DNA of 64,000 nt from Roseomonas aeriglobus. GTDB lineage: Bacteria > Pseudomonadota > Alphaproteobacteria > Sphingomonadales > Sphingomonadaceae. The notes under the pieces were generated by a model, which had not been told where the DNA came from, did not search any database, and saw only the letters and a list, made by a program, of their open reading frames with translations. A program made the position numbers and the translations under genes. The first letter of the stretch is position 1. Each line of letters opens with the position of its first letter. The DNA is taken from the NCBI GenBank assembly GCA_016937575.1, contig JAFHKN010000002.1:2480001-2544000 (forward strand), read 5' to 3'. This document shows, in pieces, positions 24,508 to 59,485 of this stretch.

Positions 24508-25836
24508 CTAACGCACCATGCACGGGCGCTTGTTGTCGAACGTCCACCCGGGGATCAGATATTGCATGGCCTGCGCGTCATCCCGTGCGCCCAGACCGTG
24601 ATCGACGTACAGCCGATGCGCCCGCGCGAGCGCGTCCTCGTCCAGTTCCACGCCCAGGCCCGGGCGTTGCGGAAGGTCGACATGACCATCGACGATCCGC
24701 GGCGCCTCGATGGTCAGGTTATCGCCGTCCTGCCAGATCCAGTGCGTATCGATCGCCGTTACCTGCCCGGGCGCAGCGGCCGCGCAATGCGTGAACATCG
24801 CCAGGCTGATGTCGAAATGGTTGTTCGAATGCGAGCCCCAGGTCAGCCCCCAGTCGCGGCAGGTCTGCGCCACCCGCACCGAACCCGCCATCGTCCAGAA
24901 ATGCGGGTCGGCCAGCGGGATGTCGACGGCTTGCAGGCGTAGCGCCTCGACCATCTGTGGCCAATCGGTCGCCACCATGTTCGTCGCGGTTGGCAGCCCC
25001 GTCCTGCGACGAAATTCGGCCATGACGTCGCGCCCGTTGCGCCCGCCTTCGGCCCCGCAAGGATCCTCGGCATAGGCCAGCACATCGGTCAGCCCCGACG
25101 CGACCCGCACCGCCTCTTCCAGGCTCCAGGCGCCATTGGGATCGAGCGTGATGCGCGCCTCGGGAAAGGCATCCTTCAATGCGCGTACCGCAGCCGCTTC
25201 TTCGTCGGCCGCGAAGACGCCCCCCTTCAGCTTGAAGTCGCGAAAGCCATATCGCTGCTGCGCGGCGCGAGCGAGCGCCACCACGGCCGCAGGCGTCACG
25301 GCCTCCTCGTTACGAAGCCGCGCCCATGCATCGGCCGAACCGCTCTCGTCCCGATACGGCAGATCGGTCCGGTGCCGGTCCCCGATGTAGAACAGGTACC
25401 CCAGCATCTCGACCCGGTCGCGCTGCCGCCCCTCGCCCAGAAGGTCCGCGACCGCGCAGCCGAGGTGCTGGCCGAGCAGGTCGAGCATCGCGCTTTCGAC
25501 CGCTGTCTGCACGTGGATCGTGGTCCGCAGATCGAAGGTCTGCAGCCCGCGGCCGCCCGCATCCCGGTCGCCGAAGCGCCGGCCGATCTCGGTCACGATC
25601 CGGGCATGCGTACCGACGGTCGCGCCGACGACGATGGTCCGGCAATCCTCCAGCGTCTGCCTGATCGCTTCGCCGCCGGGCACCTCGCCCAGTCCGGTGT
25701 TCCCGCTTTCGTCGGTCAGCACCACGACGTTGCGCGTGAAATAGGGACCGTGCGCCCCGCTCAGGTTGAGCAGCATGGAGTCCTGACCGGCGACCGGGAC
25801 GACCCGCATCGACGCGATCTTGGGTGCTCGGCTCAT
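24508..25836 (-). CDS. gudD: Glucarate dehydratase
   Basis: Converts D-glucarate (and L-idarate) to 5-keto-4-deoxyglucarate. All expected active-site residues are present in the 442-residue sequence: K202 and K204 (DFKLKGG), D232/N234 (LDPNGAW), E257/D258 (AEDPC), N286 (ATNMVAT), D310 (LADPHFW) and H336 with N338 ([11 protein letters not shown]). The C-terminus [19 protein letters not shown] is almost identical to the enterobacterial enzyme. It overlaps the kdgD gene by four bases and precedes the exported hydrolase by 22 bases. Confidence 0.96.
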
Positions 25837-26762
25837 GCCGCGGCAGCCACCACGGCCTGCGCCCGCTGGATTAGCATATCCAGTTCCGCCAGCTCGGATT
25901 CGAGCAGGCCGGTGAGCGGGGGGCGCACCGCGCCGGCAGGCCGACCGACCAGGTCGCAGCCCGCCTTGACGATCGACACGGCATAGCCACGACCGCGGTT
26001 GCGCAACGCGATATAGGGCAGGACGAAATTGTTGAGCTCGCGCACGATCGTCGCCTTGTCGCGGGCGCGAACCGCCCGGTAGAAATTCACCGCCCAGTCC
26101 GGCATGAAATTGAAGATCGCCGACGAATAGGTCGTCACCCCCATCTCCAGATAGGCCGGGGCGAAGGTCTCCGCGGTCGGCAGCCCGCCGACGTAGGTCA
26201 GCCGGTCACCCAGCTTGCAATAGATCCGCATCATCAGTTCGACGTCGCCCACCCCGTCCTTGTAACCGATCAGGTTCGGGTTGCGATCGCACAGGCGAGC
26301 GAGCGTATCTTCGGTCACCACGGCGTTGTCGCGGTTGTAGACGATCACCCCCAGCGAGGTCGCGCGGCAGACCGCCTCGATATGCTCGGCCAGGCCCTCC
26401 TGCCCCGGCACCATCAGATAGGGCGGCAGCAGCAGCAGGCCGTCGGCACCGACCCGTTCCGCCTGGCGGGCGAGGTCGACGGCGATCGCCGTGCCATATC
26501 CGCAGCCCGCGATCACCGGTACGCGCCCTGCGGTTTCGGCGACGGCGGCCTCGACCACCGCGACGACCTCCGCCGGCTGAAGCGAAAAGAACTCGCCGGT
26601 CCCCCCCGCGGCGAACAGGCCCGCCACGTCATGCTCCAGCATCCAGCTACAGTGCCGGCGATAGGGTTCGACTTCGAACTGCATGTCGGCATCGAAATGC
26701 GTGACCGGGAAAGACAGCAGGCCCGACCCGATTTTCGCAGCCATTTCTTGGGAAGACATCAT
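25833..26762 (-). CDS. kdgD: 5-dehydro-4-deoxyglucarate dehydratase (decarboxylating)
   Basis: DapA-superfamily enzyme that turns 5-keto-4-deoxyglucarate into 2-oxoglutarate semialdehyde with loss of CO2 and water. The 309-residue TIM barrel has the Schiff-base Lys168 ([11 protein letters not shown]), catalytic Tyr142 (GVIVYNRDN) and the substrate loop [11 protein letters not shown]. The start [13 protein letters not shown] is typical for the family. It is the first gene of the operon kdgD-gudD-hydrolase-talarate dehydratase and takes the product of both dehydratases. The 2-oxoglutarate semialdehyde dehydrogenase that would follow is not in this window. Confidence 0.93.
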
Positions 26763-26833
26763 CTTGAAGTTCCGTCTGAGGTTTGGTGAGCAGCGCTATC
26801 ATCGGCGCACGAACCCCGTCCAAACCCGATCGG

Positions 26834-26846
26834 CTCTCGATCGATA
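26834..26846. promoter_or_regulatory. 13-bp element upstream of kdgD, shared with the operon at 34.4 kb
   Basis: CTCTCGATCGATA lies 72-84 bases upstream of the kdgD start. The same 13 bases occur inverted at 34596-34608, upstream of the metallo-hydrolase operon that encodes the LysR regulator. Neighbouring bases are also alike at both sites (CGATCGG on one side, TATGATC / CATGGATC on the other). Proposed LysR-type binding site; inferred, not tested. Confidence 0.5.
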
Positions 26847-26893
26847 GCGCTTTGCTATGATCCGGCCGGACCGGTGGCGGGGCGAGATCGGGA

Positions 26894-29797
26894 TCAGAAC
26901 CTGGCCCGCACGCCGACCCGGTAGGAACGACCGATGCCGTCATAAAGGACCGGGTTGAACGGCGGCGTGCTCGACGCATTGCCGGCCGCGACGGGCGGAT
27001 CCTTGTCGAACAGGTTCTCGACCGCGAAATACAGTTCGGTCTTGTTGCGCCCCTGGCCGAACAGCGTGTAATTGCCGCCGAGGTCGAAATATTTCGCACC
27101 GGCGATATAGTTGCGGTCGATGTCGACCCCGCTGACCCAGGTCACGTCATAGACCCCCGCGGAGATCGTCCGCATGGTGAGGGTCAGCGAAGCCTGGTCG
27201 CTATCGTACCCCAGCGACGTGAACGTGCGCCACTTGGGGATCGACGGCGCGGCATTCGGCCCGCCGTTCTCGCCCACGGCCTCGTTGGTCACATTGTTGT
27301 TCGTGAAGCTGTAGTTGAGCGCCCGGTTGGCGAGGAAGCGCAGCACGATATTGCCGGCCGCGTCGCGGAAGAGGCCGTCGAAGGGCACGCGGTACGACGC
27401 ATCGATGTCGAAGCCGCGAACGCGCTGGGATGCGACGTTGACCGGCACGCGGCGGATTTCGGTGATCGTCCCGGCCGCATTGCGAGTGATCAGGGCGCAC
27501 AGCTCGGATTCGCCGCCGATGCAGCGCGCGACGATGTCGTTGACCGCCAGCGTGGTGATCGCGTCGCTGAGCTTGATGTTGTAATAGTCGAACGATGCGC
27601 TGAAGCCGGGCAGGAACCGCGGCGACACCACCACGCCCAGGCCAAGCGTGTTGGCCTTTTCCGGACGCAGCGCGCGGTTGCCGTCGGTGATCTGGGTGAT
27701 GCGGGTGGGATTGACCGTCGCCAGCGGGTCGGTGACGTCGACCGCCTGCGACGCGCCGGCGGCATAGAGTTCCTGCAGGTTGGGCGCGCGAATGTCCCGC
27801 GAGCGGACGACGCGGAACTTGATGTCGCGGATCGGCTCGTAGGTCACGCCCGCCTTCCACGTGGTCACGCGCCCCGAGGTCGAATAATCGGTGATGCGTG
27901 CGGCGCCGTTGAAGTCGGCGGTACCGATCCCGCTGTCCTTGAGAAGCGGGACGACGACCTCGGCAAAACCTTCGGTGACGGTATATTTGCCGGCATTGCT
28001 TTTGAAATTGCCGGTGAAGAAGCCGCCGAGCGTCGTCGGATAGAGCGCAGGCCCCGACACGAAGGTAGCCGACACGGGATCGCCGACGGCGGTCACGGAT
28101 TCGCTGCGACGCTCGACGCCGGCCGCAAAGGACACGGGCCCGGCCCACAGATCGAACGGCTCGCCGGTGATCGACAGCGAGCCGACCTTCTGCGTGATGG
28201 CCTGGGTCTGAGAGGCAGTACCCTTGACATAGGCGATCGCGGCCGGGCTGGCGACACCCGTGCCGAAGATGTTGAGCGGCACGCAGCCGTCGTTCGGATT
28301 GGTGAGCGTCGAGCGGCAGACGATCTGGCCCGAGGCGTTGGTGACGGCGTCGATCGCGTTGCTGAACTTGATGTTGTCGGTGGTATTGAGCAGCTTGATG
28401 TCCAGATTGGTGCGGCCGTACTGATAATAGGCCTGCCACTTCCACCCCTGGCCCAGCTCGCCCGCCAATGTGCCGACGAGGCGGTAGTTCTCCCGCTCGA
28501 TGTCGTTGACCATCCGCCCGAGATCGACGGACCCATAGCCGACGCGGAACGAGGTGATGTTGTTGGCCGCTGCCGTCGCACGGACGCTTGCGGGCAGGAA
28601 GGCGTTGTTGGCGCTGACGTCGATGTTGTTGACGTTGCGCTGATAGGCCGCCGGACCGACCGTGTGCGTCTTGCCGTAGGATGCCTCGATGGTGGCGGTC
28701 ACGGCCGGGCTGAATTCGTAGCTGAGCATCCCCCAGCCGTTGGTCCGGTCGATCCGCGGGGTCAGCGTGCCGAAATTCCCCTCGTTCCACGGATTGCCGC
28801 CGATCATGAAGTTGCCGGCAATCGTGCCATAGACGAACGGCGTCACCGCCCCACCCGCGCCGAAGCTGGTACCGAAGAAGGGGTTGGTCGTGTTGGTCAG
28901 CGCCCCGCTGGTGATGAAGTTCCGGCGCACGCCGTTCTGTACGACACTGTTGATGACGGTGCCTTGGGCGACGTTGTTGTAATGGACGTTGTCCGCCACG
29001 ATCTGGCGCGGCTGGCCGTTCCCCGCCACGAACGCCGGGTTGGTGACCAGATATGTCTCCCTGTACCATTTGCGCTTGGCAGGATCGATCTGGAAGATCC
29101 CGTCCTCGTGCTGGTGCTCGCCGGAGACGATCACATGTCCCCGGCCATCGGCGAACGCTTTCCCGAACGACCCGGTGAATTGGTAGTTCTTGTTGTCGCC
29201 CCGGCTGGTCACGCCGCCCATGACGTTCAGCTTCACGCCTTCGAACTTCCGGTCGATCACGAAGTTGACGACGCCGGCGACGGCATCCGACCCATAGGCC
29301 GCCGATGCGCCGCCGGTGACGATGTCGACGCGGCTGAGCAATGCGGTCGGAATGTTGTTGACGTCGACCGCGCCGGTCTGGGTCGAAGGGGCGACGCGCT
29401 GACCATCGATCAGGACCAGCGTCCGGTTCGAACCCAGGCCGCGCAGGTCGAGCAGGTTGAGGCCGGCGGTACCGGTCGAGGTGGCGCCATTCCCGGCGCG
29501 GGAGGTGGCGGTACCGGTCAGCTGCGGCAGCTGGTTCAGATAATTGGCGACATTGGTCGGCGCGGATTTGGAAATCAGCGAGGCATCGACCACCGTCAGC
29601 GGCGTCGGGGCGTCATATCCGTCACGCTGGACACGGCTGCCGGTCACGATGACCTCTTGGGTCGCGGTCTGTGCGGCCGCTTCGCTTTCCTCGATCGGCG
29701 GCGTCGGAACGGTCTGCGCAGCGGCAACGGATGACCACAGGGCCAACGGCAGGCTGACACCGGTCAGTAACAGCGGACGCGCGAAATTCCTTGGCAT
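26894..29797 (-). CDS. TonB-dependent outer-membrane receptor in the aldarate locus
   Basis: A 967-residue receptor: signal peptide (LTGVSLPLALWSSVAAAQ), TonB-box-like EVIVTGSRVQRDG, plug domain (about 50-170, with VANYLNQLPQLTG, LDLRGLGSNRTLVLIDGQR and GGASAAYGSDAVAGVVNFV), and a 22-strand barrel ending in YRVGVRARF. The start at 29797 follows a GGGAGGGGAGG ribosome site; a longer frame upstream is not credible. It has its own leader region (29798-29968) and lies between the two enzyme operons, so it most likely imports the sugar-acid compound that the locus degrades. Confidence 0.93.
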   Translation of the reverse strand: MPRNFARPLLLTGVSLPLALWSSVAAAQTVPTPPIEESEAAAQTATQEVIVTGSRVQRDGYDAPTPLTVVDASLISKSAPTNVANYLNQLPQLTGTATSRAGNGATSTGTAGLNLLDLRGLGSNRTLVLIDGQRVAPSTQTGAVDVNNIPTALLSRVDIVTGGASAAYGSDAVAGVVNFVIDRKFEGVKLNVMGGVTSRGDNKNYQFTGSFGKAFADGRGHVIVSGEHQHEDGIFQIDPAKRKWYRETYLVTNPAFVAGNGQPRQIVADNVHYNNVAQGTVINSVVQNGVRRNFITSGALTNTTNPFFGTSFGAGGAVTPFVYGTIAGNFMIGGNPWNEGNFGTLTPRIDRTNGWGMLSYEFSPAVTATIEASYGKTHTVGPAAYQRNVNNIDVSANNAFLPASVRATAAANNITSFRVGYGSVDLGRMVNDIERENYRLVGTLAGELGQGWKWQAYYQYGRTNLDIKLLNTTDNIKFSNAIDAVTNASGQIVCRSTLTNPNDGCVPLNIFGTGVASPAAIAYVKGTASQTQAITQKVGSLSITGEPFDLWAGPVSFAAGVERRSESVTAVGDPVSATFVSGPALYPTTLGGFFTGNFKSNAGKYTVTEGFAEVVVPLLKDSGIGTADFNGAARITDYSTSGRVTTWKAGVTYEPIRDIKFRVVRSRDIRAPNLQELYAAGASQAVDVTDPLATVNPTRITQITDGNRALRPEKANTLGLGVVVSPRFLPGFSASFDYYNIKLSDAITTLAVNDIVARCIGGESELCALITRNAAGTITEIRRVPVNVASQRVRGFDIDASYRVPFDGLFRDAAGNIVLRFLANRALNYSFTNNNVTNEAVGENGGPNAAPSIPKWRTFTSLGYDSDQASLTLTMRTISAGVYDVTWVSGVDIDRNYIAGAKYFDLGGNYTLFGQGRNKTELYFAVENLFDKDPPVAAGNASSTPPFNPVLYDGIGRSYRVGVRARF

Positions 29798-29968
29798 CAG
29801 GTGCCTCCCCTCCCGTAGCGCAGCCGCTTTGGCGGCATGCCTTTTCTTCGCGTCACAGACTTCCCCGGCGAACCCCCTGAGTCCAATTCCGGCTGGCAAT
29901 CAAACGATGCCAGGCAGGTATGCATGGGCCGGCCGCGTGTCGGTGGTCCCTCGTGCCGGCGCCCGCGC

Positions 29969-31117
29969 TTACGACCGCGCGAGAAAATGCTCCGCCGCCT
30001 GCATCAGGCCCCGGGTGTGCCCATAGGCGAAGGCGAAGCTCTGGAGCCCTGCCTCGGGATGTCCGGGCACCTCGGGCACATGGTCGGGCATCAGCATGCC
30101 GTCATAGCCGACCTCGTGATAGGTCAGCAGCGCCCGGAACATGTCGACGTCGCCTTCGTCCGGGAAGGCTTCCCGGAAATGCCCTCGCCCGCCGACGATA
30201 TTGCGGAAATGCACGTTGAAGATCTTCTTCCGCGACCCGAACCAGCGGATCACGTCGAAGATCTCGACCGCCGGACGCGCCAGATTCTCGCTGACCGTTC
30301 CCTGGCAGAAATTCAGGCCATGGAAGCGGCTTTCGCGGATCGACACGAAGCGCTTCAGTCCGTCGATCGTGCCGAGCACGCGGTGAACCCCCTGATAGCC
30401 CTCGGGCGGCGTGCCCGGATCGTGCGGGTGGCAGGCGATGCGGATCTTATATTCCTCGGCCACGGGAACGACACGGTCGAGGAACCATGTGATGCGTTCC
30501 CAGAACGCGTCTTCGCTGACGGTACCGGCGCGGGTGAGCGGCGTCGGCGGCGCGGCCTTGCGCGCATCCCATTCACCGAATTGCACCGATCCGCCGCGTC
30601 CGGTGACATGCCCCGTGCGCAACACGCCCAGGATCGACATATTATATTTGATGCAGGGGATCCCCGCCCGCGCGCAGTTGCGGATCAGGGTCTGGAACGC
30701 CTCCACCTCGCGCTCGCGTTCGGGACTCTGTGCCAGCATGATGCCCGGATTGCGCTCGCGGTCGATGTGCGACGACGGCAGGAGCACGGGGTCGAGGATG
30801 TCGAGCTTGAGCCCCCTCGCCTCGGCCATGGCCCTGACGCCGGTCAACTCGTCGACCGTCGAGTACAGCCGCCCGGCAGACACCGGCGCACGGGCGGCGA
30901 TATGGGTCACGCCGTAGCGGGCGAGATATTCGAAATGCTCGTCGGTAGCCGGCCCGCTCTGGCAGCCGAGCTTGAACTTCAGTCGCCCGCTCGGCCGCTG
31001 CCCGACGGGCGTCGTTCGCGCCTGCGGCCTTGCCGCGGCCATGTCGCTCGCGCCGGTCGTCGCGGAAAGGGCAAGGCCCGTGCCCAGGCCCGTCAGAAAC
31101 TGCCGCCGTTCGATCAT
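29969..31117 (-). CDS. Exported UxuA-like (mannonate dehydratase family) protein with Tat signal
   Basis: A 382-residue TIM-barrel protein of the mannonate dehydratase/xylose isomerase-like group. The N-terminus MIERRQFLTGLGTGLALSATTG is a twin-arginine signal, unusual for a family that is normally cytoplasmic. The UxuA metal ligands are all there: His in IACHPHDPG, Cys in LNFCQGTVSE, His in NVHFRNIVGG and Asp-His in LMPDHVPEV; HFREAFPDEGDVDMF is also typical. It is the last gene of the metallo-hydrolase/GlucD-like/LysR operon. It may act on a sugar acid or its derivative in the periplasm; a true mannonate dehydratase role is not proven. Confidence 0.8.
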   Translation of the reverse strand: MIERRQFLTGLGTGLALSATTGASDMAAARPQARTTPVGQRPSGRLKFKLGCQSGPATDEHFEYLARYGVTHIAARAPVSAGRLYSTVDELTGVRAMAEARGLKLDILDPVLLPSSHIDRERNPGIMLAQSPEREREVEAFQTLIRNCARAGIPCIKYNMSILGVLRTGHVTGRGGSVQFGEWDARKAAPPTPLTRAGTVSEDAFWERITWFLDRVVPVAEEYKIRIACHPHDPGTPPEGYQGVHRVLGTIDGLKRFVSIRESRFHGLNFCQGTVSENLARPAVEIFDVIRWFGSRKKIFNVHFRNIVGGRGHFREAFPDEGDVDMFRALLTYHEVGYDGMLMPDHVPEVPGHPEAGLQSFAFAYGHTRGLMQAAEHFLARS

Positions 31118-31187
31118 CCTCTCCCCTTCGTTTTGTTCGTCGCCGGGATGGTCCCAGGCCGGCAGGGCGGCACCGGGATCCGCTGCG

Positions 31188-32126
31188 CTATCCGCCGCCC
31201 CCCGTGCCTCCCCCGCCACCGTGTTCGCCGGTCCATCGCCGAAGGTTCGTCAGCAACAGGCGCAGGGCCGGATTGACATTGTCCTGGCGCCACGCGGCGT
31301 GCAGTTCGACGATCGGATCGGTATTCTCGAGTTCCGAAAACACCACATTGTCCGGATGAAGATGCGTGGACGCCTCCGGCACCAGCGCATAGCCATGCCC
31401 GGCGCCGACCAGCGTCAGGATGGTATGGATCTGCGCGACATGCTGGACGAGTTGCGGAGAGGCATGGGCATTGGCGAACAGCCCGGTCACCAGATCGTGA
31501 AAATAGCGCGCCTTGTCGGGCGCATACATGATGATCGGCAGGCCGTCGAAGTCGGCAAGCGTGCGTGGGCATGCATGCGCCGGGATCGAATCGTGCCGGC
31601 ACACGACAAACCGTTCCGTCAGGACTCGCATCGACGCCAGTTCCGTCCCGCGCACCGGTGGACGCAACAGACCGATGTCGAGCCGGCCGGTCTGCAACGA
31701 TTCGAGCTGCTCCCCGGTGACCATTTCCTTCAGCAGCAGCTTCACGTCGGGCATGTCGATCCGCATGCGTCCGAAGAAACTCGGCAGGAAACTGTACCCC
31801 GATGCCGCGGTGAAGCCGAGTGCGACCATGCCGCGCTGGCCCTCCGCTGCGGCGCGCGCGGTCGCTACCGCGCTGTCGGACAGTTCGACGATCCGGCGAG
31901 CCTCGGCGAGGAAGACCACGCCGGCGGCGGTCAGGCGGACCGACCGGCTCGATCGCGCCACCAGTTCCAGCCCGACGATCCGTTCCAGGACCTGGATATG
32001 CCGGCTGAGCGGAGGCTGCGTCATGTTGAGACGGGCCGCGGCGCGCCCGAAGTGCAGTTCCTCGGCCACGGCGACGAAGCAGCGCAGCTGGATCAGTTCA
32101 AACATGGTGCGGAACCACGCGCTCAA
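31188..32126 (-). CDS. LysR-family transcriptional regulator
   Basis: A regulator of 312 residues with N-terminal winged helix-turn-helix (LRCFVAVAEELHFGRAAARLNMTQPPLSRHIQ) and a C-terminal periplasmic-binding-type effector domain (MVALGFTAASGYSFLPSFF). The C-terminus ends in a Gly-rich tail. The ATG at 32126 overlaps the upstream stop codon (ATGA); an alternative ATG at 32105 (MFELIQLRCF) matches the family length better. Sitting among aldarate catabolism genes, it probably activates them in response to a sugar acid, perhaps through the 13-bp element found at 26834 and 34596. Confidence 0.92.
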   Translation of the reverse strand: MSAWFRTMFELIQLRCFVAVAEELHFGRAAARLNMTQPPLSRHIQVLERIVGLELVARSSRSVRLTAAGVVFLAEARRIVELSDSAVATARAAAEGQRGMVALGFTAASGYSFLPSFFGRMRIDMPDVKLLLKEMVTGEQLESLQTGRLDIGLLRPPVRGTELASMRVLTERFVVCRHDSIPAHACPRTLADFDGLPIIMYAPDKARYFHDLVTGLFANAHASPQLVQHVAQIHTILTLVGAGHGYALVPEASTHLHPDNVVFSELENTDPIVELHAAWRQDNVNPALRLLLTNLRRWTGEHGGGGGTGGGG

Positions 32127-33394
32127 TACCTCGGTTTGACGGGTGAGAACGCGGGATCATATTTGCGCATCTGGCCCGTGTCATCGCGCGTGCGGATCGC
32201 GATCCGATCGAATGTCGCCTTCCCCCGCGCCAGCCGCACCGGATCGATGGCCAGGCCCAGCCCCGGCCGGTCGCCGACCCGTACACAGCCGTTCATGAAC
32301 GCGATCTTCCCGCCGCGCACGACCTCGTCCGCATCCTCGACCCAAGGGTAATGGGTGTCGCAGGCATAGGTCAGGTTCGGCGTCGCTGCGGCGAGGTGCG
32401 CCATGGCCATCAGGCTGATCGCCAGATGCGAGTCGGAATGCATCGACAACCCGAGGCCGAAGGTGGCGCACATCGCGCCGAGCGACTGGCTGTCCCGCAA
32501 ACCGCCCCAATAATGATGGTCGGACAACACGATCTGCACCGCGTTCAGGGCGACGCTGCGGCGCAGGTGATCGAAGCAGGTCACCACCATGTTGGTGGCG
32601 AGCGGCAGACCGGTGCGACGATGCAGTTCGGCCATCGCCTCCAGTCCGTTGACCGGGTCTTCGTAATATTCGATCAGGCCACGCAGCCGATCTGCCGCTG
32701 CGATCGCGGTCTCCATCGACCACGCCCCGTTCGGATCGATCCGGAGGGGATAGTCGGGGAAGGCGTCGGCCAGCGCCTCGATCGTCGCGATCTCGACCGA
32801 CGGGGGCAGCGTGCCGGCCTTCAGCTTGATGCTGCCGAATCCATGGCGATCGATCATGCGCCGGGCCTGGGCCACCATCTGCGCGGGGGTGATCGCCTCG
32901 CCCCAGCTGTCGGCCGGCTCCTCGGGCTCGATGTGGCGGGCGTATTTGTAGAAGAGATAGGCGCTGAAGGGCACGTCGTCGCGAACCGCTCCGCCGAGCA
33001 GCGCATGCAGCGGAACGCCCGATGCTTGCGCCTGCAGGTCGAGCATCGGGACTTCGAACGCCGAACAGCAATTGGCCCCCTGTCGCGCGGGGTCGGAGCC
33101 TGGCGCCAGTTCGGCCCCGGGCGGCGGCGGCGGCAGCCCGCTCAGCGTTTCGGCGACGATCCGGCGCAGCCCGTTCAGATCGTGCACCGACAGCCCGACC
33201 AGCCGCGGCGTCACCGCCTGCAGCGCGGCGAGCGCGGCCGCATCGCCATAGCCCTCGCCAAGGCCGGTCTCGCCGTTTTCCGCGACGACCTCGATAATCG
33301 AGCGCAGCGCATAGGGTTCGTGGATTCCGGCCGCATTCAGCAGCGGCGGATCGCGAAACGCGATCGGCGTGACCCGGACGTCGGCGATCCTCAC
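32123..33394 (-). CDS. Glucarate dehydratase-related protein (enolase superfamily)
   Basis: A 423-residue mandelate-racemase-group protein related to GudD. It keeps the Lys pair (SIKLKAG), the metal ligand region (RIDPNGAW, YYEDPVNG, ATNMVVT, LSDHHYW) and the catalytic His (MHSDSH), but the GudD HSNNH motif reads HSDSH, so the residue that hydrogen-bonds substrate (Asn in E. coli GudD) is Asp. This resembles the divergent GudX-type paralogues and suggests altered or reduced activity, or another acid-sugar substrate. It starts 24 bases after the metallo-hydrolase gene and overlaps the LysR gene. Confidence 0.83.
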   Translation of the reverse strand: MRIADVRVTPIAFRDPPLLNAAGIHEPYALRSIIEVVAENGETGLGEGYGDAAALAALQAVTPRLVGLSVHDLNGLRRIVAETLSGLPPPPPGAELAPGSDPARQGANCCSAFEVPMLDLQAQASGVPLHALLGGAVRDDVPFSAYLFYKYARHIEPEEPADSWGEAITPAQMVAQARRMIDRHGFGSIKLKAGTLPPSVEIATIEALADAFPDYPLRIDPNGAWSMETAIAAADRLRGLIEYYEDPVNGLEAMAELHRRTGLPLATNMVVTCFDHLRRSVALNAVQIVLSDHHYWGGLRDSQSLGAMCATFGLGLSMHSDSHLAISLMAMAHLAAATPNLTYACDTHYPWVEDADEVVRGGKIAFMNGCVRVGDRPGLGLAIDPVRLARGKATFDRIAIRTRDDTGQMRKYDPAFSPVKPRY

Positions 33395-33418: not shown

Positions 33419-34441
33419 TCAGTCACCGGTCTCTCCCATCCGCGCCAGCTGTACGCGCGAGCAGGCCTCCATCACCTTGGCGAACCGCTGCGCCCGGTCC
33501 TTGCCATAGATGAACGGATTGACGTCACCCGGGTCGGCATGGGTCAGCAGCTGGATCTTCTCGATCGCGGCGATGTGCGCGGGATGGTTGCTGATCACCG
33601 CATCGACGCCGGCCTGCCGGGTCAGGCCGCTCCAGCGCTGGAGCGATGCGATCTGGTCGTGGATCGCGGCGCTGGTCGAACCGCCGCCGGTCCCGCCCAT
33701 CAGCCCGACCACGTGCGGCCGCCCCCGATCGGTGACGGGGAAGATCGCCGACAGCGTTCCCGGCGTATGGCCGGGCGTGACGTAGAGTTTCACGCTGGTC
33801 CGGCCGAGCGTGATGCTATCCCCGTCGCGCACGACGATGTCGCGGCGCGGCGGTACGAGGTCGCGGAACGGCCCGCCGCCGCGATCCGGGCTTTCGAGCA
33901 TTTTCCAGTCCGCGTCCGACAAGGCGACCCGGGCACCGAAATTATCCTGGAAATATTTGGCGCCGCCCCAGTGGTCGCCGTGGCCGTGCGTGACGATCAC
34001 ATATTTGATACGCTTGGGGTCGAGCCCGAGACGGATCATGTTCGGCACCATGATGTCGCGCGCTTCGGCTTCGTTGTTCAGCGCATCGATCAGGATGATC
34101 CCATCGGACGTATCGAGCGCCCAGGCCGATACGGCGTTCTGGCCGATCGAATAGAGCTGGTCGAAAACCTTGGCTTCCTGAACCAGGCCGTCGTGCTGGA
34201 TCGCAAACACCGTCTTCCGGTCCAGCGGGCTCGTCATGCACCGCCAGTAGAATTCCGGCAGAAGGTCGGGATCGGCCCATTTCCGCGCGGCGGACAGGTG
34301 TTTTGCGACAGCCTTCCCGTTGGCGTTCGGGAAGGTCGCTTGCGCTGAATAGCCCGCCGGGGGGGGCGTCTGCGCGGGTCCCCCGACCGGGGCAACAAGC
34401 ACGGCCGAAGCCGCAATGGCTGACAGGACTCGCCGCATCAC
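33419..34441 (-). CDS. Exported metallo-beta-lactamase-fold hydrolase (B3-like)
   Basis: A 340-residue protein with a signal peptide (VLSAIAASAVLVAPVGG) and an MBL fold. Zinc ligands visible are H152, H154, D156 and H157 (VTHGHGDHWGG), H225 (TPGHTPG) and H286 or H289 (ISNHPAHI). The sequence between is like the B3 subgroup (DGIILIDALNNEAEA; PNMIRLGLDPKRIKYVIV). Genes of this kind are often labelled beta-lactamases, but here it opens an operon with a GlucD-like enzyme, the LysR regulator and a UxuA-like protein, so a lactonase or esterase acting on an aldarate derivative is at least as likely. Confidence 0.82.
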   Translation of the reverse strand: MMRRVLSAIAASAVLVAPVGGPAQTPPPAGYSAQATFPNANGKAVAKHLSAARKWADPDLLPEFYWRCMTSPLDRKTVFAIQHDGLVQEAKVFDQLYSIGQNAVSAWALDTSDGIILIDALNNEAEARDIMVPNMIRLGLDPKRIKYVIVTHGHGDHWGGAKYFQDNFGARVALSDADWKMLESPDRGGGPFRDLVPPRRDIVVRDGDSITLGRTSVKLYVTPGHTPGTLSAIFPVTDRGRPHVVGLMGGTGGGSTSAAIHDQIASLQRWSGLTRQAGVDAVISNHPAHIAAIEKIQLLTHADPGDVNPFIYGKDRAQRFAKVMEACSRVQLARMGETGD

Positions 34442-34640: not shown

Positions 34641-36032
34641 TCAAAGGCCCAACTGCGCTCTGTCGACCGTCGCGGCGACCAGCTCTGCCCGTGCGGCCGA
34701 GCGGCGGAATTCCGCGTCGAGCTGGCGCAGGCGGGCGTCGGCGGCACTCTCTTCGCGCAGATTCACCACCAGAAAGTCACTAGCCCCCAGCTGAAAACGA
34801 CGACGCTCTGCCGCGGCCATGCGGTCGGCGAGTGCCGTTTCGTCGGCGGCGAGGGCGACCAGGCGATCCGCCGTCGTCGCCTGGATGGCGAGGCCGTTCA
34901 CCTCGACGAGGATCTGGTCCTCGATCAATTTCCGGCGGTATCGCAGGCCGTCGGCTTCGGCGGCGGCCTCCGCGATCTTGCCGCGTGCGGACCGACGTTC
35001 GAGCGGCAGCGAGAAGCGCACACCGACGATGCCTTCCGCCGGCGTGCGGTTGGGGCCGCCCAGACCGATGGGGCCGATATCCTTCGCGGCTTCCGCCCGG
35101 ACGTCCAGACGTGGGCGAAGCTCGTTTTCGGCGAGCAAACGCTTCACCTCGACCTGATCGAGGCGAACGAGGATCGCCTCCAGGTCCGGGCGCTCGATGC
35201 GCTGGGCAAGGTCGGGGCCGAGGAGAGGCAGGCGAAGGTCGGGCAGCTTTGCCGGCAGCCGGTCCGGTGACGGAACGACCCGCTCCCCCGATGGATCGCG
35301 TAGATAGAAGGACAAGGCGTTGGCGGCGGCGGCGAGGTCCTGTTCGGCCCGCACCAGCAACGTCTGGCGCCGCACGATGTTCTGGCGGTTTTCCGTACCC
35401 AATATGTCCGGCCGCGCGCCGAGCTGGATCTGCCGCTCGATCGAGGCCTGCCGTTCGGTGGCAAGGCTGAGCAGGTCCCGATAGACCTGCATGCGCAGTC
35501 CGGCGACGACCCAGGCCTGGTACGCGTCGATGGCGCGGCGCTGGACGCCGATCGCGATCATCTCGCGTTCGAGACGTGCGAGTTGGATGTCGCCGCCCGC
35601 CAGCCCCAGGCGACCGCGCCGCTCGTCGATCAGCCGGTCCCGCATCAGCGAGAAGACGGCGCCGACCTTCACTTCGCCCAGTCGATTGGTGAACGACTTG
35701 TCCTCGTAGACGGGAAAGGTGCCGCGCGAGACGCGGTAGCCGCCGTACAACGCACCGCCGTTGTTCGCGAGCGGGCGGGTGGCGCGAGCCTCCGCGACGG
35801 TGCCATCGTAATAGCCGAGCAGACGCGACTGGGCGTCGCCCTCGAACAGCAGGTCGAACGCGCCTTCGGCCGTCAGGCGACGGCCGTCCGCCTGGCGTTC
35901 CTTGGTCATCGCCTCCAGAATGGCCGGGGCATAGGTTGCCGACGAGCGCAGGACGTCGTCCAACATCAGCGTCTGGGCGACCGCCGGCGCTGCGGCGAAC
36001 AGCGACGCGGCGATGGCGACGAAGCGGATCAT
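34641..36032 (-). CDS. TolC-family outer-membrane channel
   Basis: Outer-membrane exit duct of a tripartite export system. The 463-residue protein has a signal peptide (VAIAASLFAAAPAVAQ), then the alternating long coiled-coil helices and short strands of OEP proteins, for example DLLFEGDAQSRLLGYYDG, GVQRRAIDAYQAWVVAGLRM, NRQNIVRRQTLLVRAEQDLAAAANAL and the C-terminal FLVVNLREESAADARLRQLDAEFRRS. Its start overlaps the HlyD stop by four bases, so it is the third gene of an ABC-HlyD-TolC operon. Confidence 0.9.
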   Translation of the reverse strand: MIRFVAIAASLFAAAPAVAQTLMLDDVLRSSATYAPAILEAMTKERQADGRRLTAEGAFDLLFEGDAQSRLLGYYDGTVAEARATRPLANNGGALYGGYRVSRGTFPVYEDKSFTNRLGEVKVGAVFSLMRDRLIDERRGRLGLAGGDIQLARLEREMIAIGVQRRAIDAYQAWVVAGLRMQVYRDLLSLATERQASIERQIQLGARPDILGTENRQNIVRRQTLLVRAEQDLAAAANALSFYLRDPSGERVVPSPDRLPAKLPDLRLPLLGPDLAQRIERPDLEAILVRLDQVEVKRLLAENELRPRLDVRAEAAKDIGPIGLGGPNRTPAEGIVGVRFSLPLERRSARGKIAEAAAEADGLRYRRKLIEDQILVEVNGLAIQATTADRLVALAADETALADRMAAAERRRFQLGASDFLVVNLREESAADARLRQLDAEFRRSAARAELVAATVDRAQLGL

Positions 36033-37093
36033 TTCTTCACCTTCGCGACGGGTTCGGGTGCTGCCGCCGCGCCCTTGCTTTCGTCGGCCGGACGGCGGAA
36101 TTCGAGCGGGAAGTCGTTGAGCTGGCGCCAGAGTTCATAGCCGACGCTGACCGTTTCCATCTGGATCCAGCCACGCACCTTGCCGCCCAGACGAACATAG
36201 TCGGCACTCGGCCACGGCAATTTGCCCGGCATCGGTTCGACGATGACCCGGAACAGGCCCGACACCTGCGCCGACGGATCGATCGAGCGGACGCGCCCGT
36301 CGAACATACCGTGGGCGACCGAGGGCCAGCCGCTGAACTGGACCGCCGGCCAGCCCTCGAACGCCAGACGGACCGGGCGGCCGGGGCGGATGACGGCGAT
36401 ATCGCGACCATCGACCATCAGCTCGACGATCCGGACCGGTGCCTCGGGTGCCAGCGTCGCCAGCTGGTCGCCCGCGGCGACGAGCGTCGCGCTCGCGGCG
36501 GCGTTGATCGACTGGATCCGACCATCGCGCGGGGCGCGAACGGTCTGGGCCGACTGGCGATTGAGCGTCACGTCGACGCGGCTGAGTTTGGCCCGCGCCT
36601 CGGCCAGCTTCGCCCGCTGGTCGGCCACCTTGATCTGCGCGGCCTCGTAATCGCGGCGGGCGGCCAGCCCCTCGGCCAGCAACTGGCCCGAGCGGCCGAC
36701 ATCGATCTGCGATACCGCCATCGCCTGTTCGGCCGCGGCGATCTCGGCCAGCACCTGCGCGCGTTCGGCGGCCAGGCGGGCAAGCAGATTGGGGTCATTG
36801 TCAACGATCCGCGCGATCGGCTGGCCGCGGCGCACGCGGTCGCCGTCGCGGACGTACCAACGCTCGACCCGACCGGGGACCAGCGCGGTCACGTCCTGCA
36901 CGCGATCTTCGGGGTCGAGCGCGGCGACCTGGCCGGTCCCGGCCGACGTCTGCACCCAGGGCACGAGGAAGAGGATGGCGGCCACGATGGCGATGCCGAT
37001 GGTGATCAGCCACGCGATGACCCGCGCGATCCGGGGCGGGCGGATGCGTGTCAGCGTCGGGAAATGACCGATATGATCAGGCTGAAAGGGCAT
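36029..37093 (-). CDS. HlyD-family periplasmic adaptor
   Basis: Membrane-fusion protein joining the inner-membrane ABC protein to TolC. The 354-residue sequence has one N-terminal membrane helix (about 26-48, VIAWLITIGIAIVAAILFLVP), a biotinyl-lipoyl split domain (VTALVPGRVERWYVRDGDRV and VRAPRDGRIQSINAAASAT), a coiled-coil hairpin (LARLAAERAQVLAEIAAAEQ to KVADQRAKLAEARAKL) and a C-terminal beta domain. The ATG at 37093 overlaps the ABC gene by 17 bases. The C-terminus has a Lys/Ala-rich tail. Confidence 0.9.
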   Translation of the reverse strand: MPFQPDHIGHFPTLTRIRPPRIARVIAWLITIGIAIVAAILFLVPWVQTSAGTGQVAALDPEDRVQDVTALVPGRVERWYVRDGDRVRRGQPIARIVDNDPNLLARLAAERAQVLAEIAAAEQAMAVSQIDVGRSGQLLAEGLAARRDYEAAQIKVADQRAKLAEARAKLSRVDVTLNRQSAQTVRAPRDGRIQSINAAASATLVAAGDQLATLAPEAPVRIVELMVDGRDIAVIRPGRPVRLAFEGWPAVQFSGWPSVAHGMFDGRVRSIDPSAQVSGLFRVIVEPMPGKLPWPSADYVRLGGKVRGWIQMETVSVGYELWRQLNDFPLEFRRPADESKGAAAAPEPVAKVKK

Positions 37094-38759
37094 CGCTGCC
37101 TCCATCGCTGGCAAGGGCGATAAGTTCGTCCAGGGTGTCGCAGCGGCGCTGGTGCTGCGCATCCATCCACAGCGCCCCGTCCCGTATCAGCCCCTGGGGG
37201 CGGCGGGTGAACTGAAGGACGGTCGTGCCGCCGCGCAGCTGGGCAAGCGCGGCGTCGATGCGCTCCGGCGGCAGCAGGTCGTAGAGGGGCGACAGCACGA
37301 GCACTTTGGGTCGGGCGAGCAGCGCCGCCGCGAGCTTCAGCGCCATCAGCTCGCCAACCGAGAGCGGCCAGCCTGACGTGGACACGACGGTATCGAGCCC
37401 GTCGTCCAGCCCGCTCAGCCGCTCGGCCAGCCCGACCGTCTCCAGCGCCTCGACCATCCGCGCGCCGTTGCCCGATGCCGCAAGCGTCAGGTAATCGCGG
37501 ATCGACATCTCGACGAAGCTGGGTCGATCGAGGACCATCACCTCCGCGCGGAGACGATAGGTGTCGAACCCGCCGATGTCCTGCCCGCCCACGACGACCA
37601 GGCCGCGGTCCGGCGCCAGATGCCGTTTGAGCAGCATGGCCAGCACCCGGTCGACGCCGGCGGCGGCGACCACGGCGAGCTGCTCGCCGGTCGACACCTC
37701 GAAGTCGAACCGATGTCCGTCGATCTCGACCCGCGACAGGCGGATCGATCCATCGGCGGGGCCGTCACCTTTCACCTTGCCCGCCTCCTGCGGGACGGCC
37801 CAGAACAGCGATAGCTCCTCAAGACCCGCTGCAAGGTCGTACAGCGCTTCGAGATAGGTCCCGAACTGCGCAATGCCGTAGAAGACGCCGGACAGAATGA
37901 GCTCCGCCGCGACCAGCTGCCCGATCGACAGCTGGCCCTGGATGATGAGCCAGCCGCCGAGCGCGAGCAGGGCCGCGCTGGCGGTCGCATAGACGAACAG
38001 CAGCGCGCAGGTCTGGGCGAAGGTGTAGCGGAAATGGCGACGATGCGCGGTGACGTAATTCGCCGTTACCGCCTCCGACCGGTCCATCGCGAAGTTCAGG
38101 TGACGGCTGGACTTGTAGAAGCCGTTCGATCCGCCGACACTCTCCAACCAATGCGCAGCCGCATGTTTGACGTGGCTCTTGGCGACCGCGGTCCGGATCG
38201 CGCCCGACGCCCAGATCTGCCAGATCAGAAACAGCGCGAGCACCAGCACGCCGTTGAAGGCCAGGAAGAACGGGTGATAGAAACTCGTCACGACCAGCCC
38301 GACCAGCCCTTGCAGCATGATGGTGAAACCGCCGATCAGCAGACTGGGCAGGGCTTTCTGAACGGTCATCAGGTCGAAGAAGCGATTGAACAGGTCGCCG
38401 CGGCGTGAATCGGCGAAGAATGGGTTCTGCGCATGCACCGCGCGGATGGTGATCTCGGCGACGACGCGCGCGAACAGCCGCTGTTCGAACAGCGCAAGCA
38501 GATGGACCCGCAGCGCGGCGAGCACCCCCGCCACGAAGAGCAGCAGGAACAACAGACCGGCTAGCGTGAACAATGGTGTCGGCAGCGCGGTGTTCGCGAC
38601 CGAATTGATCAGCAGCTGGACCGAAATCGGCGTCGCCAGCGAAAGCAGCGAGATCGCGACGCCATAGACGACCGCCAGACGCACGAAAGCGGCATCGGGC
38701 GAGAGTACCAACCTCGTCCAGCCCAGGAAGGCCCGGATGCCCGGGCGCGTGTCCGCCAT
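37077..38759 (-). CDS. ABC exporter-like protein with degenerate nucleotide-binding domain
   Basis: A 560-residue protein with a complete type I exporter membrane domain (about residues 1-320, six helices, no peptidase domain) and a C-terminal ABC-fold domain whose catalytic motifs are lost. Walker A (normally GPSGSGKS) reads AAAGVDRV at 365-372, with Arg371 for the essential Lys. The Q-loop Gln is Asp411. The signature is LSVGE (466-470). Walker B/Glu (DE) is SP at 490-491, and the H-loop His is Arg519. ATP hydrolysis is therefore very unlikely. The start at 38759 follows a GGGAGA ribosome site. It leads the HlyD-TolC operon, so it may be a non-hydrolytic channel, a heterodimer half, or a sensor. 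Confidence 0.9.
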   Translation of the reverse strand: MADTRPGIRAFLGWTRLVLSPDAAFVRLAVVYGVAISLLSLATPISVQLLINSVANTALPTPLFTLAGLLFLLLFVAGVLAALRVHLLALFEQRLFARVVAEITIRAVHAQNPFFADSRRGDLFNRFFDLMTVQKALPSLLIGGFTIMLQGLVGLVVTSFYHPFFLAFNGVLVLALFLIWQIWASGAIRTAVAKSHVKHAAAHWLESVGGSNGFYKSSRHLNFAMDRSEAVTANYVTAHRRHFRYTFAQTCALLFVYATASAALLALGGWLIIQGQLSIGQLVAAELILSGVFYGIAQFGTYLEALYDLAAGLEELSLFWAVPQEAGKVKGDGPADGSIRLSRVEIDGHRFDFEVSTGEQLAVVAAAGVDRVLAMLLKRHLAPDRGLVVVGGQDIGGFDTYRLRAEVMVLDRPSFVEMSIRDYLTLAASGNGARMVEALETVGLAERLSGLDDGLDTVVSTSGWPLSVGELMALKLAAALLARPKVLVLSPLYDLLPPERIDAALAQLRGGTTVLQFTRRPQGLIRDGALWMDAQHQRRCDTLDELIALASDGGSDALSA

Positions 38760-39152: not shown

Positions 39153-41486
39153 ATGCGTTTGCTACCCTGCAGCCTTACGATGTTCCTGCTCGCCGGCACC
39201 GCGGCGGCGCAGCAACGGCCGATGGTGACGGACGCCGACTATACGCGTGCGATGCACCAGCTGGGACCGTGGACGGCGCCACTGGTCGACCACGCGGTGC
39301 GTGCGGCAACGTGGGTCGATACGCGGCGCTTCTGGTATGTCGATACCGACCGCGGCATTCCGACGATCATGCTGGTCGACGCGGAAAAGCGTACGAAGGC
39401 GCCGGCGTTCGATACCAAGCTGCTGCTGGGCGCGCTGAATGCGGCCGGCATGAAGGAACAGGATGCGACGAAGCTGGGCCTGAGCGGCTTCGAACCGGAT
39501 TTTGCGAAGAACAGCGCGATCGTGACCGTCCGCGGTGAGCGATATTCCTGTGCGCTCGCCCAGCCCTATGGATGCGCCAAGGTGGCTGAGCCGCAGGCCG
39601 CCCAGGTCGGTCGGCGCGGTCAGCCGGCGGCGGTGGTATCGCCGGACGGCAAACGCGCGGTCTTCCAGCGTGACTGGAACCTGTGGGTCCGCGACATCGC
39701 CAGTGGCGCGGAGCGACAGCTGACGACCGACGGCGTGAAGGACTTCGGCTACGCGACCGACAATGCCGGCTGGCGTCATTCGGATCAGGCGATCGTCATC
39801 TGGTCGCCGGATTCGACGAAAGTGGCGACCTTTCAGCAGGATCAGCGGGGTGTGGCCGATTTCTCGACCACGACCACCCAGGTCGGCCATTCGGTCGTCG
39901 AAACGTGGAAATATCCGTTCGTCGGCGACAAGGAGATCTTCAAGATCCACCGCGTCATCGTCGATGTCGACGCAGGCAAGGTCACGCGTCTGGACATGCC
40001 GGCGGATCTGCACCGGTCGTCGCTGTGCGACGACGTGGTTTGCGGCGACGGTCCGCAGGACATGCAATGGGCCAAGGACAGCCGCACGCTTGCCTTCGTG
40101 TCCACCTCGCGCGACCACAAGGTCGAAACGATGCGCATCGCCGACGCGGCGACCGGCGCGGTGCGCGACGTGTTCACCGAAACCGTGCCGACCTGGTTTG
40201 ACAGCGGGTACAACGACGAAGGGATCAACTGGCGCTATCTGTCTGAGCGCGGCGAAATCCTGTGGTGGTCGCAGCGCGACGACTGGGGACATTATTATCT
40301 TTACAGCGCCGCCACCGGCAAACTCCTGCGGCAGGTGACGCGGGGGCAATGGAATGTCGATCACCCGATCCACATCGATGAGCGGACGGGCAAGATGCTG
40401 ATCGCCGGTGTCGGGCGGGAGCCCGGCGTCGATCCCTATTATCGCAGCATCTATGCGATCGATCTGAAAGGCGGCACGCCAAAACTGCTGACGCCGGAGC
40501 GGCAGGATCATATCGCCATCCCGTCGAGCGACGGGCGCTATTTCGTCGACATCTATTCGACCCCGCAGCAGGCGCAGACGGCGGTTCTGCGGCGCGCGGA
40601 CGGCGCGGTCGTGCAGCAGCTTGCGAAGGGCGACCTGACGCGCCTGCGCGCGGCGGGCTGGCAAGCGCCAGAGAGCATCGCGGTCAAATGCAGCGACGGC
40701 AAGACGCTGTGCCACGGGCTGCTGTTCAAGCCGGCAGGGCTCGATCCGACGCGGAAGTATCCGGTGATCGATTACATCTATCCGGGACCGTTCACGGGTA
40801 CGATCTCGTCCCGCCAGTTTTCCCCGGCGATGGGGGATGCGGGGGCACTGGCCCAGCTGGGCTTCGCCGTCGTCGAAATCGACGGGATGGGAACGCCGCG
40901 CCGCTCGAAGGCTTTCCAGGACTATTATTACCGTGACATGGGCCGCCAGGCCGTGCCCGATCAGGTTACCGGGATCCAGGATCTCGCGACACGTTACGCC
41001 TGGCTGGATATCGATCGCGTGGGCATCTGGGGCCATTCGGGTGGCGGAAATGCGACCGCGGCGGCCATGTTCCGCTACCCCGATTTCTTCAAGGTCGGCA
41101 TCGCCGAAAGCGGAAACCACGACAACCGCAACTATGAGGACGATTATTACGAGAAGTATCTCGGGTTGCTCGAAACCGACGGCAAGACGACCAACTACGA
41201 CCTGCAGGCCAATCAGGACTTCGCCAAGAACCTGAAGGGCAAACTGTTGCTCGCGCACGGGATGCTCGACGACAACGTGCCGGTGTCGAACACACTGCTG
41301 GTCGTCGATGCGCTGCAGAAGGCGAACAAGGACTTCGACCTGATCCTCTTCCCCCGCGCACGCCACGGCTTCGGCGACCAGTCCAGCTATATGATGCGGA
41401 AGCGGTGGGACTATTTCGTCGAGCACCTGATGGGCGCGACCCCGCCGACGGAATTCAAGATCGTGGGACCTGGCGCCGGCCGGTAG
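39153..41486 (+). CDS. Dipeptidyl-peptidase IV-like serine peptidase (S9B)
   Basis: Exported peptidase of 777 residues that would release dipeptides from peptide N-termini, preferring Pro or Ala at position two. A signal peptide (LPCSLTMFLLAGTAAAQ) is followed by an eight-bladed propeller (to about residue 500; RGVADFSTTTTQVGHSVVETWKYP-like region) and an alpha/beta hydrolase domain. The triad is Ser629 (IWGHSGGGNAT), Asp706 (HGMLDDNVP) and His738 (RARHGFG), spaced almost exactly as in human DPP4. The nucleophile elbow is GHSGG rather than the common GWSYG. The ATG at 39153 is chosen for the signal peptide; the long upstream extension is non-coding in style. Confidence 0.92.
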   Translation: MRLLPCSLTMFLLAGTAAAQQRPMVTDADYTRAMHQLGPWTAPLVDHAVRAATWVDTRRFWYVDTDRGIPTIMLVDAEKRTKAPAFDTKLLLGALNAAGMKEQDATKLGLSGFEPDFAKNSAIVTVRGERYSCALAQPYGCAKVAEPQAAQVGRRGQPAAVVSPDGKRAVFQRDWNLWVRDIASGAERQLTTDGVKDFGYATDNAGWRHSDQAIVIWSPDSTKVATFQQDQRGVADFSTTTTQVGHSVVETWKYPFVGDKEIFKIHRVIVDVDAGKVTRLDMPADLHRSSLCDDVVCGDGPQDMQWAKDSRTLAFVSTSRDHKVETMRIADAATGAVRDVFTETVPTWFDSGYNDEGINWRYLSERGEILWWSQRDDWGHYYLYSAATGKLLRQVTRGQWNVDHPIHIDERTGKMLIAGVGREPGVDPYYRSIYAIDLKGGTPKLLTPERQDHIAIPSSDGRYFVDIYSTPQQAQTAVLRRADGAVVQQLAKGDLTRLRAAGWQAPESIAVKCSDGKTLCHGLLFKPAGLDPTRKYPVIDYIYPGPFTGTISSRQFSPAMGDAGALAQLGFAVVEIDGMGTPRRSKAFQDYYYRDMGRQAVPDQVTGIQDLATRYAWLDIDRVGIWGHSGGGNATAAAMFRYPDFFKVGIAESGNHDNRNYEDDYYEKYLGLLETDGKTTNYDLQANQDFAKNLKGKLLLAHGMLDDNVPVSNTLLVVDALQKANKDFDLILFPRARHGFGDQSSYMMRKRWDYFVEHLMGATPPTEFKIVGPGAGR

Positions 41487-52299: not shown

Positions 52300-52424
52300 A
52301 TTTGGCGCAAAGCAATCGCGTCACGACGCCAAACGCCGACAGGCCGTAGCATGTCACTCCTGCGCGGCAGTCGTCGTATGACGGCCGTTCAAACGACTGT
52401 ATCCACAAATCTTTTTTTGGAAAA

Positions 52425-52448
52425 TGGTGCGCCTACAGGACTCGAACC
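52425..52448 (-). other. tRNA 3'-end-like remnant, possible attachment site
   Basis: Read on the minus strand it gives GGTTCGAGTCC (T-arm core), then TGTAGGCGCACCA with a 3' CCA, as at the end of a tRNA gene. The T-stem partner upstream is imperfect and the acceptor strand is one base short, and no anticodon arm follows, so it is not a working tRNA. Such 3' ends are classic integrase attachment sites. Confidence 0.5.
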
Positions 52449-52841
52449 TTTTCTGTAACGCGCTCATAATGTTTCACAATTTTTGATGTATTTCGCTTAT
52501 GGCCCCTTATTGGCCCCCATCAGATTTTCACATTTTTGGGCATCGAACCTGCGCCGTTTTGGTCGATACTGGGTCTTCGGTGAGCATTGAAAACGCCTTG
52601 AAACCGACACATCGCTCATGCCACTCACGCAACGCTGATCAGTAAAAACTCTCGTTAAGCGCTGTCACCAGTCGCTTGATAGAGTGGGCGTCGTGAACCG
52701 CTTTGCGTCGGCTTGCGGCTGGATATACGCCACAACCGGATCCGCGGTTCCGGCTATCGCTGACCCCGCGCCTTTCTCGGCCGCTCGGAATGGCGACCGC
52801 TCTGAAGCCAGTCGTCCAACCGCCGATAATGAGAACGCAAT

Positions 52842-52862
52842 CCTGACAACGGCCTTGTCAGG
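52842..52862. terminator. Stem-loop upstream of the Lrp-type regulator
   Basis: Perfect inverted repeat CCTGACAA-CGGCC-TTGTCAGG. It may be a transcription terminator of lost flanking sequence or part of the regulator leader. No T-run follows directly. Confidence 0.35.
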
Positions 52863-52940
52863 CATAAGGGTTTGCCCCTCTCTGGGGTGTTCGATGGCAG
52901 CGATTTCTGCGAGTACGGTCAGCAGATCAGGAGATTGGGA

Positions 52941-53432: not shown

Positions 53433-53448
53433 GTCTATGGAAGGTGCG

Positions 53449-56177: not shown

Positions 56178-56266
56178 TTCGCATCGATTCCGCAACTACG
56201 GATCTATGCTGATTTGTAAGAAGTGGCCTGCGGGTGACACAGCCGCCGCCCGCAGGGACACGATAA

Positions 56267-59371: not shown

Positions 59372-59485
59372 TCGCTAGCCCCCTCTAATCTGCGTCTTAC
59401 GGCAGCGACCCTACCGCTCTCATAGTCCGGCGACGCCTTGCGAGCGTTCTATAAGATTTGCCCGGACCCCTCCTTAGCAGTACAA

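Follow-up and report, generated by a model that had tools for sequence, protein, structure and literature searches.

Can an exporter of the ATP-binding cassette (ABC) type be maintained, together with its periplasmic adaptor and outer membrane channel, once the motifs that burn ATP have gone? The question is raised by a minus-strand operon in a 64,000-nucleotide stretch of Roseomonas aeriglobus DNA (contig JAFHKN010000002.1, positions 2,480,001 to 2,544,000; hereafter the window, whose own numbering is used throughout), which runs from 38759 to 34641 and carries three overlapping genes in the order ABC–HlyD–TolC. ABC exporters are defined by their use of ATP, and a family keeping the machine, the adaptor and the channel without the catalytic motifs would be an exception to that definition. 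Relatives with the same loss and the same gene neighbours occur in many other bacteria, and together they appear to form a functional export system not powered by ATP in the conventional manner. On balance, the operon is likely to encode a tripartite exporter whose ABC component is a pseudo-ATPase, not run by ATP hydrolysis, with the cassette serving as a structural or regulatory latch.

An ABC gene without ATPase motifs

The gene with the ABC-exporter fold (37077..38759, minus strand) opens with ATG at 38759, closes with a stop codon at 37077-37079 and encodes a 560-aa protein with one 6-helix membrane domain and one cassette domain devoid of ATPase motifs. It overlaps by 17 nt the gene of a HlyD-type periplasmic adaptor (36029..37093, minus strand, 354 aa), which in turn overlaps by 4 nt the gene of a TolC-type outer membrane factor (TolC/OEP; 34641..36032, minus strand, 463 aa). 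An earlier note, made from the sequence of the locus, had described a clean frame, overlapping genes and intact partners, and this description holds, with no internal stop in the 560 codons, a match of the adaptor to HlyD_3 (56.1 bits) and a match of the channel to OEP (73.9 bits). In Pfam, the ABC protein passes ABC_membrane (41.8 bits, cutoff 28) and falls slightly below the cutoff for ABC_tran (24.2 bits, cutoff 25).

At the Walker A position (37644..37667, minus strand), residues A365-V372 read AAAGVDRV, with R371 where Lys is expected; the register may move by one column between alignments, and the window protein is without GK in every register. On the same strand, D411 replaces the Q-loop Gln (37527..37529), S490-P491 the Asp-Glu at the end of Walker B (37287..37292) and R519 the H-loop His (37203..37205), so that every substitution named earlier was verified in both sequence and alignment. 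The signature position (37350..37364, minus strand; L466-E470) reads LSVGE instead of LSGGQ, a further loss that the earlier note did not contain. The AlphaFold monomer model gave a confident, complete exporter fold, with six helices per half plus the cassette and a first helix starting at residue 8, and matched ABC exporters over its full length, the top matches (rows within 1 Z being tied) including ATP-bound states. The membrane domain and the overall ABC fold are thus kept, as had been proposed.

Losses across homologues

A near set of 180 proteins, including that of the window, was assembled from the best 120 of 1700 phmmer hits and 60 added from the best 120 of 1731 profile hits. The Walker A Lys column of this set held Arg in 163 proteins, Gln in 6, His in 5, Ser in 4 and Val and Gly in 1 each, and the Walker B Asp column held Ser in 161, Ala in 9, Thr in 5, Gly in 3 and Phe and Val in 1 each; neither Lys, Asp nor a GK(S/T/N) motif at the Walker A site was found in any of the 180. 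A scan of named genomes recovered at least 475 relatives among 594 pattern matches, and the best 80 loci, which include Sphingomonas, Novosphingobium, Sphingobium, Xanthomonas, Caulobacter, Methylobacterium and others, were aligned with the window. Across these 81 rows, the four positions showed no Lys, no Asp, one Glu (L098) and one His (L113). In the 199 genomes of the taxonomic family to which the window belongs, 34 matched at E 1e-20 and 22, its own genome included, carried orthologues, all of them without the Lys and the Asp, the whole Walker B region being missing from one; neither the 81 rows nor these 22 genomes showed a GK(S/T/N) Walker A loop. The scans at class and phylum level scored at most three candidates per genome, and their counts of 3/385 and 11/398 are lower bounds. 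The orthologues share at least 48% identity, against about 27% or less for canonical ABCs. The degenerate ABC gene is present once in its genome, where five other matches score no more than 62.4 bits; the four of these that were aligned have GK, DE and LSGGQ-type motifs.

Losses at the same positions in hundreds of homologues are more than chance would give, and strain-specific decay or sequencing error was ruled out, the losses being common to the near homologues examined, which included no orthologue with intact motifs. As judged from the alignments, other residues stand throughout the window's clade in place of those required for ATP binding and hydrolysis at both composite sites.

The cassette domain is under purifying selection in close pairs. 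In NG86 estimates for the 40 least-diverged pairs with a synonymous divergence (dS) above 0.15, the ratio of non-synonymous to synonymous divergence (dN/dS) was 0.043-0.181 for the cassette or nucleotide-binding domain (NBD) and 0-0.130 for the transmembrane domain (TMD), which indicates that the dead domain is constrained, less so than the membrane domain. Between the window and seven of its nearest named loci, the NBD had a dN of 0.099-0.180 at a dS of 0.66-0.87. The NBD also keeps conserved residues of its own, including D494 (180/180) and R520 (178/180), with 37 positions at or above 97.5%. The shared losses and the selection in close pairs bear out the view of a maintained rather than decaying protein.

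Conserved gene neighbourhood

The adaptor and channel genes accompany the ABC gene in other genomes, a point on which the earlier note had asked for comparison. By tblastn, HlyD and TolC genes follow the ABC gene on its own strand in 80/80 and 77/80 named loci, respectively; among the three loci without TolC, L113 and L115 stop shortly past the ABC gene. An earlier synteny count based on open reading frames (ORFs) had given 64/80 for HlyD and 75/80 for TolC, lower values because the ORF caller missed genes. Annotated plasmids with ABC-HlyD-TolC were seen in Novosphingobium (among them pNL2 of Novosphingobium aromaticivorans DSM 12444), Sphingomonas, Sphingobium, Aureibacter and Riemerella, the adaptor of the Sphingobium plasmid being labelled as a biotin/lipoyl-binding protein, and of 18 plasmid records matched, 15 were from sphingomonads and 3 from Persicobacteraceae.

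The sole frequent extra neighbour is an OxyR-like LysR gene, which gene clustering placed in 47/80 loci (49 genes, 41 on the ABC strand); for the three tested, the best model was OxyR, at 163-168 bits against a cutoff of 329. No other conserved extra operon gene was found in the 80 loci. Partners and cargo were sought by regular expressions in a crude set of 1226 ORFs from the 80 loci, covering up to 10 kb on each side. In that set, RTX-like cargo was absent from the window and present in one locus of the 80 (L046), although non-RTX or unlinked cargo would escape such a search. Some neighbours are particular to a few loci. In L136 (Sphingobium plasmid pHAL16), a DUF2309 gene directly precedes the ABC gene and a LysR-type gene lies downstream, and in L129 and L137 (Novosphingobium plasmids) and L127 (Aureibacter), a TonB-dependent receptor gene follows the operon, adjacent or, in L129, one gene away. 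The receptor is a possible hint at the cargo.

A proposed order of losses in the wider family

More distant relatives were collected with a profile built from L126, L128 and L127, which yielded 1714 proteins; the best 120, the named ones among them including Bacteroidota and Methylobacillus, were joined with 33 others into a survey of 153 family sequences. The Ser-Gly of LSGGQ was present in 0/153, Asp-Glu at Walker B in 3/153, and no member with fully intact motifs was found among the 153. By contrast, Lys stands in the Walker A column of 118/120 distant sequences versus 5/33 of the others, and a G-GK(S/T/N) loop in 118/120 versus 3/33 (L126, L128, L132). Three distant proteins (P0211, P0244 and P0280) are without the signature and the H-loop His while retaining Asp-Glu and the Walker A Lys. 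Intermediates also occur outside the window's clade, with Walker A and the Walker B Asp in L126 and L132 and Asp (as Asp-Asp) but no Lys in L133, whereas L134 and L122-L125 are fully degenerate.

In a tree of 58 membrane domains, the rows without Lys fell mainly into one 16-row branch (SH-aLRT 99), with L133 and P0204 apart; L127 was scored there as Lys-bearing although its loop is degenerate, and the root is uncertain because the branches of the canonical outgroup are very long. The simplest reading would be a two-step loss, in which the signature, the catalytic Glu and the H-loop went early and Walker A later. Such a graded series, from Walker A kept to Walker A lost, permits step-by-step comparison. 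In public records, family members are named 'ABC transporter transmembrane domain-containing' or 'ATP-binding protein', and in Bacteroidota 'peptidase domain-containing'; the label 'ATP-binding protein' is probably wrong for the window's clade.

An invariant glutamate in TM6

The sixth transmembrane helix (TM6) carries a glutamate, E286 (37902..37904, minus strand), that is Glu in 300/300 listed proteins, in 153/153 sequences of the family survey, which overlaps the 300, and in the Riemerella protein, typically within the motif Gln-Leu/Phe-Val-Ala-Ala-Glu. The best 80 named loci cannot test this residue, one of the two patterns that seeded them having contained the TM6 Glu. In seven ABCs of the type I secretion system kind, the aligned column is Asn. 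E286 could be either an ion site or a structural swap, the latter being suggested by an acid in TM1 of canonical ABCs where the family has its acid in TM6. At residues 52 and 286 of P0001, the TM1 acid of canonical ABCs and the TM6 Glu of the family resemble an exchange between two helices.

Mechanism and rival explanations

In the proposed mechanism, the ABC protein would act as a homodimer with the HlyD adaptor and TolC. The cassette domain would no longer burn ATP and would form a structural, possibly also regulatory, latch on the membrane domain. In relatives whose sole remaining motif is the Walker A loop, ATP binding may persist as a gate; the window's clade has lost even Walker A. Transport would then be gated and driven without ATP hydrolysis, the most plausible driving force being an ion gradient that works through the membrane domain and the other option a gradient of the substrate itself. 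The cargo is slightly more likely to be a small molecule than a large RTX protein, since the adaptor narrowly passes an RND-type model and misses the type I model. The ATP sites of ABC exporters are composite, both NBDs contributing residues to each (PMC7756269). With both faces of the site lost, a complete site should be absent from a homodimer and also from a heterodimer in which a single half is intact, and this, with canonical NBD genes found near the operon only in 14/15 Xanthomonas loci and in L100, favours an exporter free of ATP hydrolysis.

The earlier note had suggested that an ATPase partner might come from elsewhere, and an obligate heterodimer, with an intact half-exporter encoded elsewhere supplying the ATPase activity, is unlikely. 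Heterodimers in which one site is degenerate are common among exporters (PMC7756269), and further half-exporter genes whose motifs are intact are present in the genome; in 14/15 Xanthomonas loci (e.g. L060, L062, L103), the dead ABC gene is preceded on its own strand, at a distance of about 1.1 to 1.2 kb, by the gene of an intact half-exporter, and a LysR gene, where called, stands between the two. Yet Walker A, Walker B, the H-loop and the signature are all lost, and one intact partner would leave no complete site. A canonical NBD gene near the operon was found in 15/80 loci (14 Xanthomonas and L100) and in neither the window nor the other 65 loci of the crude ORF set, where an unlinked partner is possible; a linked ATPase partner was accordingly dropped as a general feature. 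A cryptic or strongly divergent ATPase, binding and slowly hydrolysing nucleotide with other residues, is likewise improbable. The cassette is predicted to be folded and has the conserved residues described above, relatives that keep Walker A exist, and ATP-bound states are among the tied top structural matches, but the conformational state of a monomer model is weak evidence, the Walker A loop is variable in the window's clade, and the phosphate-binding Lys, the Mg-coordinating Asp, the catalytic Glu and the signature are all gone.

Unlikely, too, is a platform or gated channel, in which the ABC-fold protein would anchor and gate a HlyD-TolC conduit that either allows passive flow or serves a different pump of the inner membrane. 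The conservation of adaptor and channel alongside the ABC protein, the lack of a visible energy source and the best score of the adaptor, on an RND-type model, are in its favour; however, the whole TMD, including the cytoplasmic loops and TM6, seems constrained beyond the needs of an anchor, and outside Xanthomonas the neighbours include no frequent gene for another pump. That the gene is decaying into a pseudogene is very improbable. Its occurrence is patchy (22/199 genomes) and one copy among the 22 is interrupted, but the matched ranges of the 80 named loci are free of stops except at codon 560/565 in L109, at the C-terminal end, purifying selection is seen in close pairs, and the signature and Walker B are lost across several classes and two phyla; we regard this reading as already contradicted.

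Several observations weigh against a maintained exporter that runs without ATP hydrolysis. Over all 2612 pairs with a dS of 0.15-1.2, the median dN/dS was 0.41 for the NBD and 0.23 for the TMD, with an NBD maximum of 0.83; saturation probably inflates these all-pairs values, which are nevertheless compatible with relaxed constraint on the NBD. The mean top-residue fraction is also lower in the NBD (0.68 vs 0.81 in the TMD). The interrupted copy (L025, genome G036) lies in two frames with a break near residue 411-415, and L020 has a Lys one column from the Walker A Lys column, outside any Walker A context. L083 (Methylobacterium sp. Leaf465) has ABC and HlyD genes but no TolC relative in its 21-kb locus. 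As to an ion site at E286, the TM1 acid (Asp) is present in all six canonical ABCs of the family alignment, where the family has Asn, Gly, Ser or Thr, and in one alignment Asp stands at the E286 column of a canonical ABC, L004. Equivalence of E286 with E314 of LmrA was ruled out by the spacing to the Walker A Lys (93-98 vs 74 residues). For LmrA itself, ethidium transport is reported to have required ATP hydrolysis, and the current triggered by ATP to have been absent when the NBD was missing (PMC6155054).

A wider extension of the hydrolysis-free exporter is possible and put forward tentatively. In a family spanning Bacteroidota and Pseudomonadota, hydrolysis would have been abandoned early and ATP binding kept as a gate, then lost in the sphingomonad and Xanthomonas line, whose members would now be ion-driven around the TM6 Glu, as secondary transporters in an ABC body. 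The family would offer a natural test of what cassette domains do besides hydrolysis and of whether ions can drive an ABC membrane domain.

Other features of the window

The operon is flanked by a divergent DPP IV-type peptidase gene upstream (39153-41483) and a gene with a metallo-beta-lactamase fold downstream (33419-34441). A scan for promoters and terminators gave a single promoter-like site, which lies on the opposite strand, and no more terminator-like sites than chance would give. The three operon proteins matched none of the PADLOC families of known anti-phage defence at E 1e-5, and a defence reading was dropped. Further away, 25833-33394 holds genes of the DHDPS, UxuA and mandelate racemase/enolase C-terminal families, and the gene at 31188-32126 beside them resembles a LysR regulator by eye; the group may be a cluster for sugar-acid catabolism. 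The G+C fraction is 0.565-0.623 in the six 2-kb blocks of 52001-64000 and 0.634-0.707 in the 26 preceding blocks, and this low-GC part is possibly a recent acquisition.

Comparison with known systems

No publication on this exporter family was found in the PubMed Central (PMC) literature, subscription literature lying outside the search. One point of reference is type I secretion, to which the earlier note had likened the operon; the likeness stands for the joint presence of ABC, HlyD and TolC genes in one operon and fails for the strict type I models, and no RTX cargo is linked in the window. Against type I ABC exporters of the HlyB and LssB type, the window ABC scores 104.7 and 92.4 bits, with NCBIfam cutoffs of 725.55 and 693.1, and, judged by motifs alone, it is without their ATPase motifs; it also has no N-terminal peptidase-like domain. 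The adaptor scores 78.9 bits on type_I_hlyD (cutoff 208.65), and the RND-type model is the sole adaptor model that it passes, at 95.8 bits against 94.9, that is, by 0.9 bit. Peptidase-containing ABC transporters (PCAT) have an N-terminal C39 peptidase-like domain, which the 560-aa window protein lacks, its Pfam matches being ABC_membrane, a weak ABC_tran and a chance-level Innexin.

Heterodimeric exporters with a degenerate site (TmrAB, TM287/288, BmrCD, ABCB2/B3) retain one complete composite site, whereas the window gene has lost residues of both site halves and has no partner linked in the window. LmrA sets a precedent for an ABC membrane domain coupled to ions, with a proton-coupling TM6 glutamate, E314 (PMC6155054), but differs in that its NBD is functional and required for drug transport, and in the position of that glutamate. 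A further comparison is with the Bacteroidota proteins annotated as 'ABC transporter ATP-binding protein' or 'peptidase domain-containing ABC transporter' with HlyD and TolC, which belong to the same family by profile, show the same synteny in two annotated plasmid regions (Aureibacter and Riemerella) and, like the window protein, have the invariant TM6 Glu and no LSGGQ Ser-Gly; they differ from it in the Walker A loop, which nearly all of the best distant profile matches, from Bacteroidota and also Methylobacillus, still keep.

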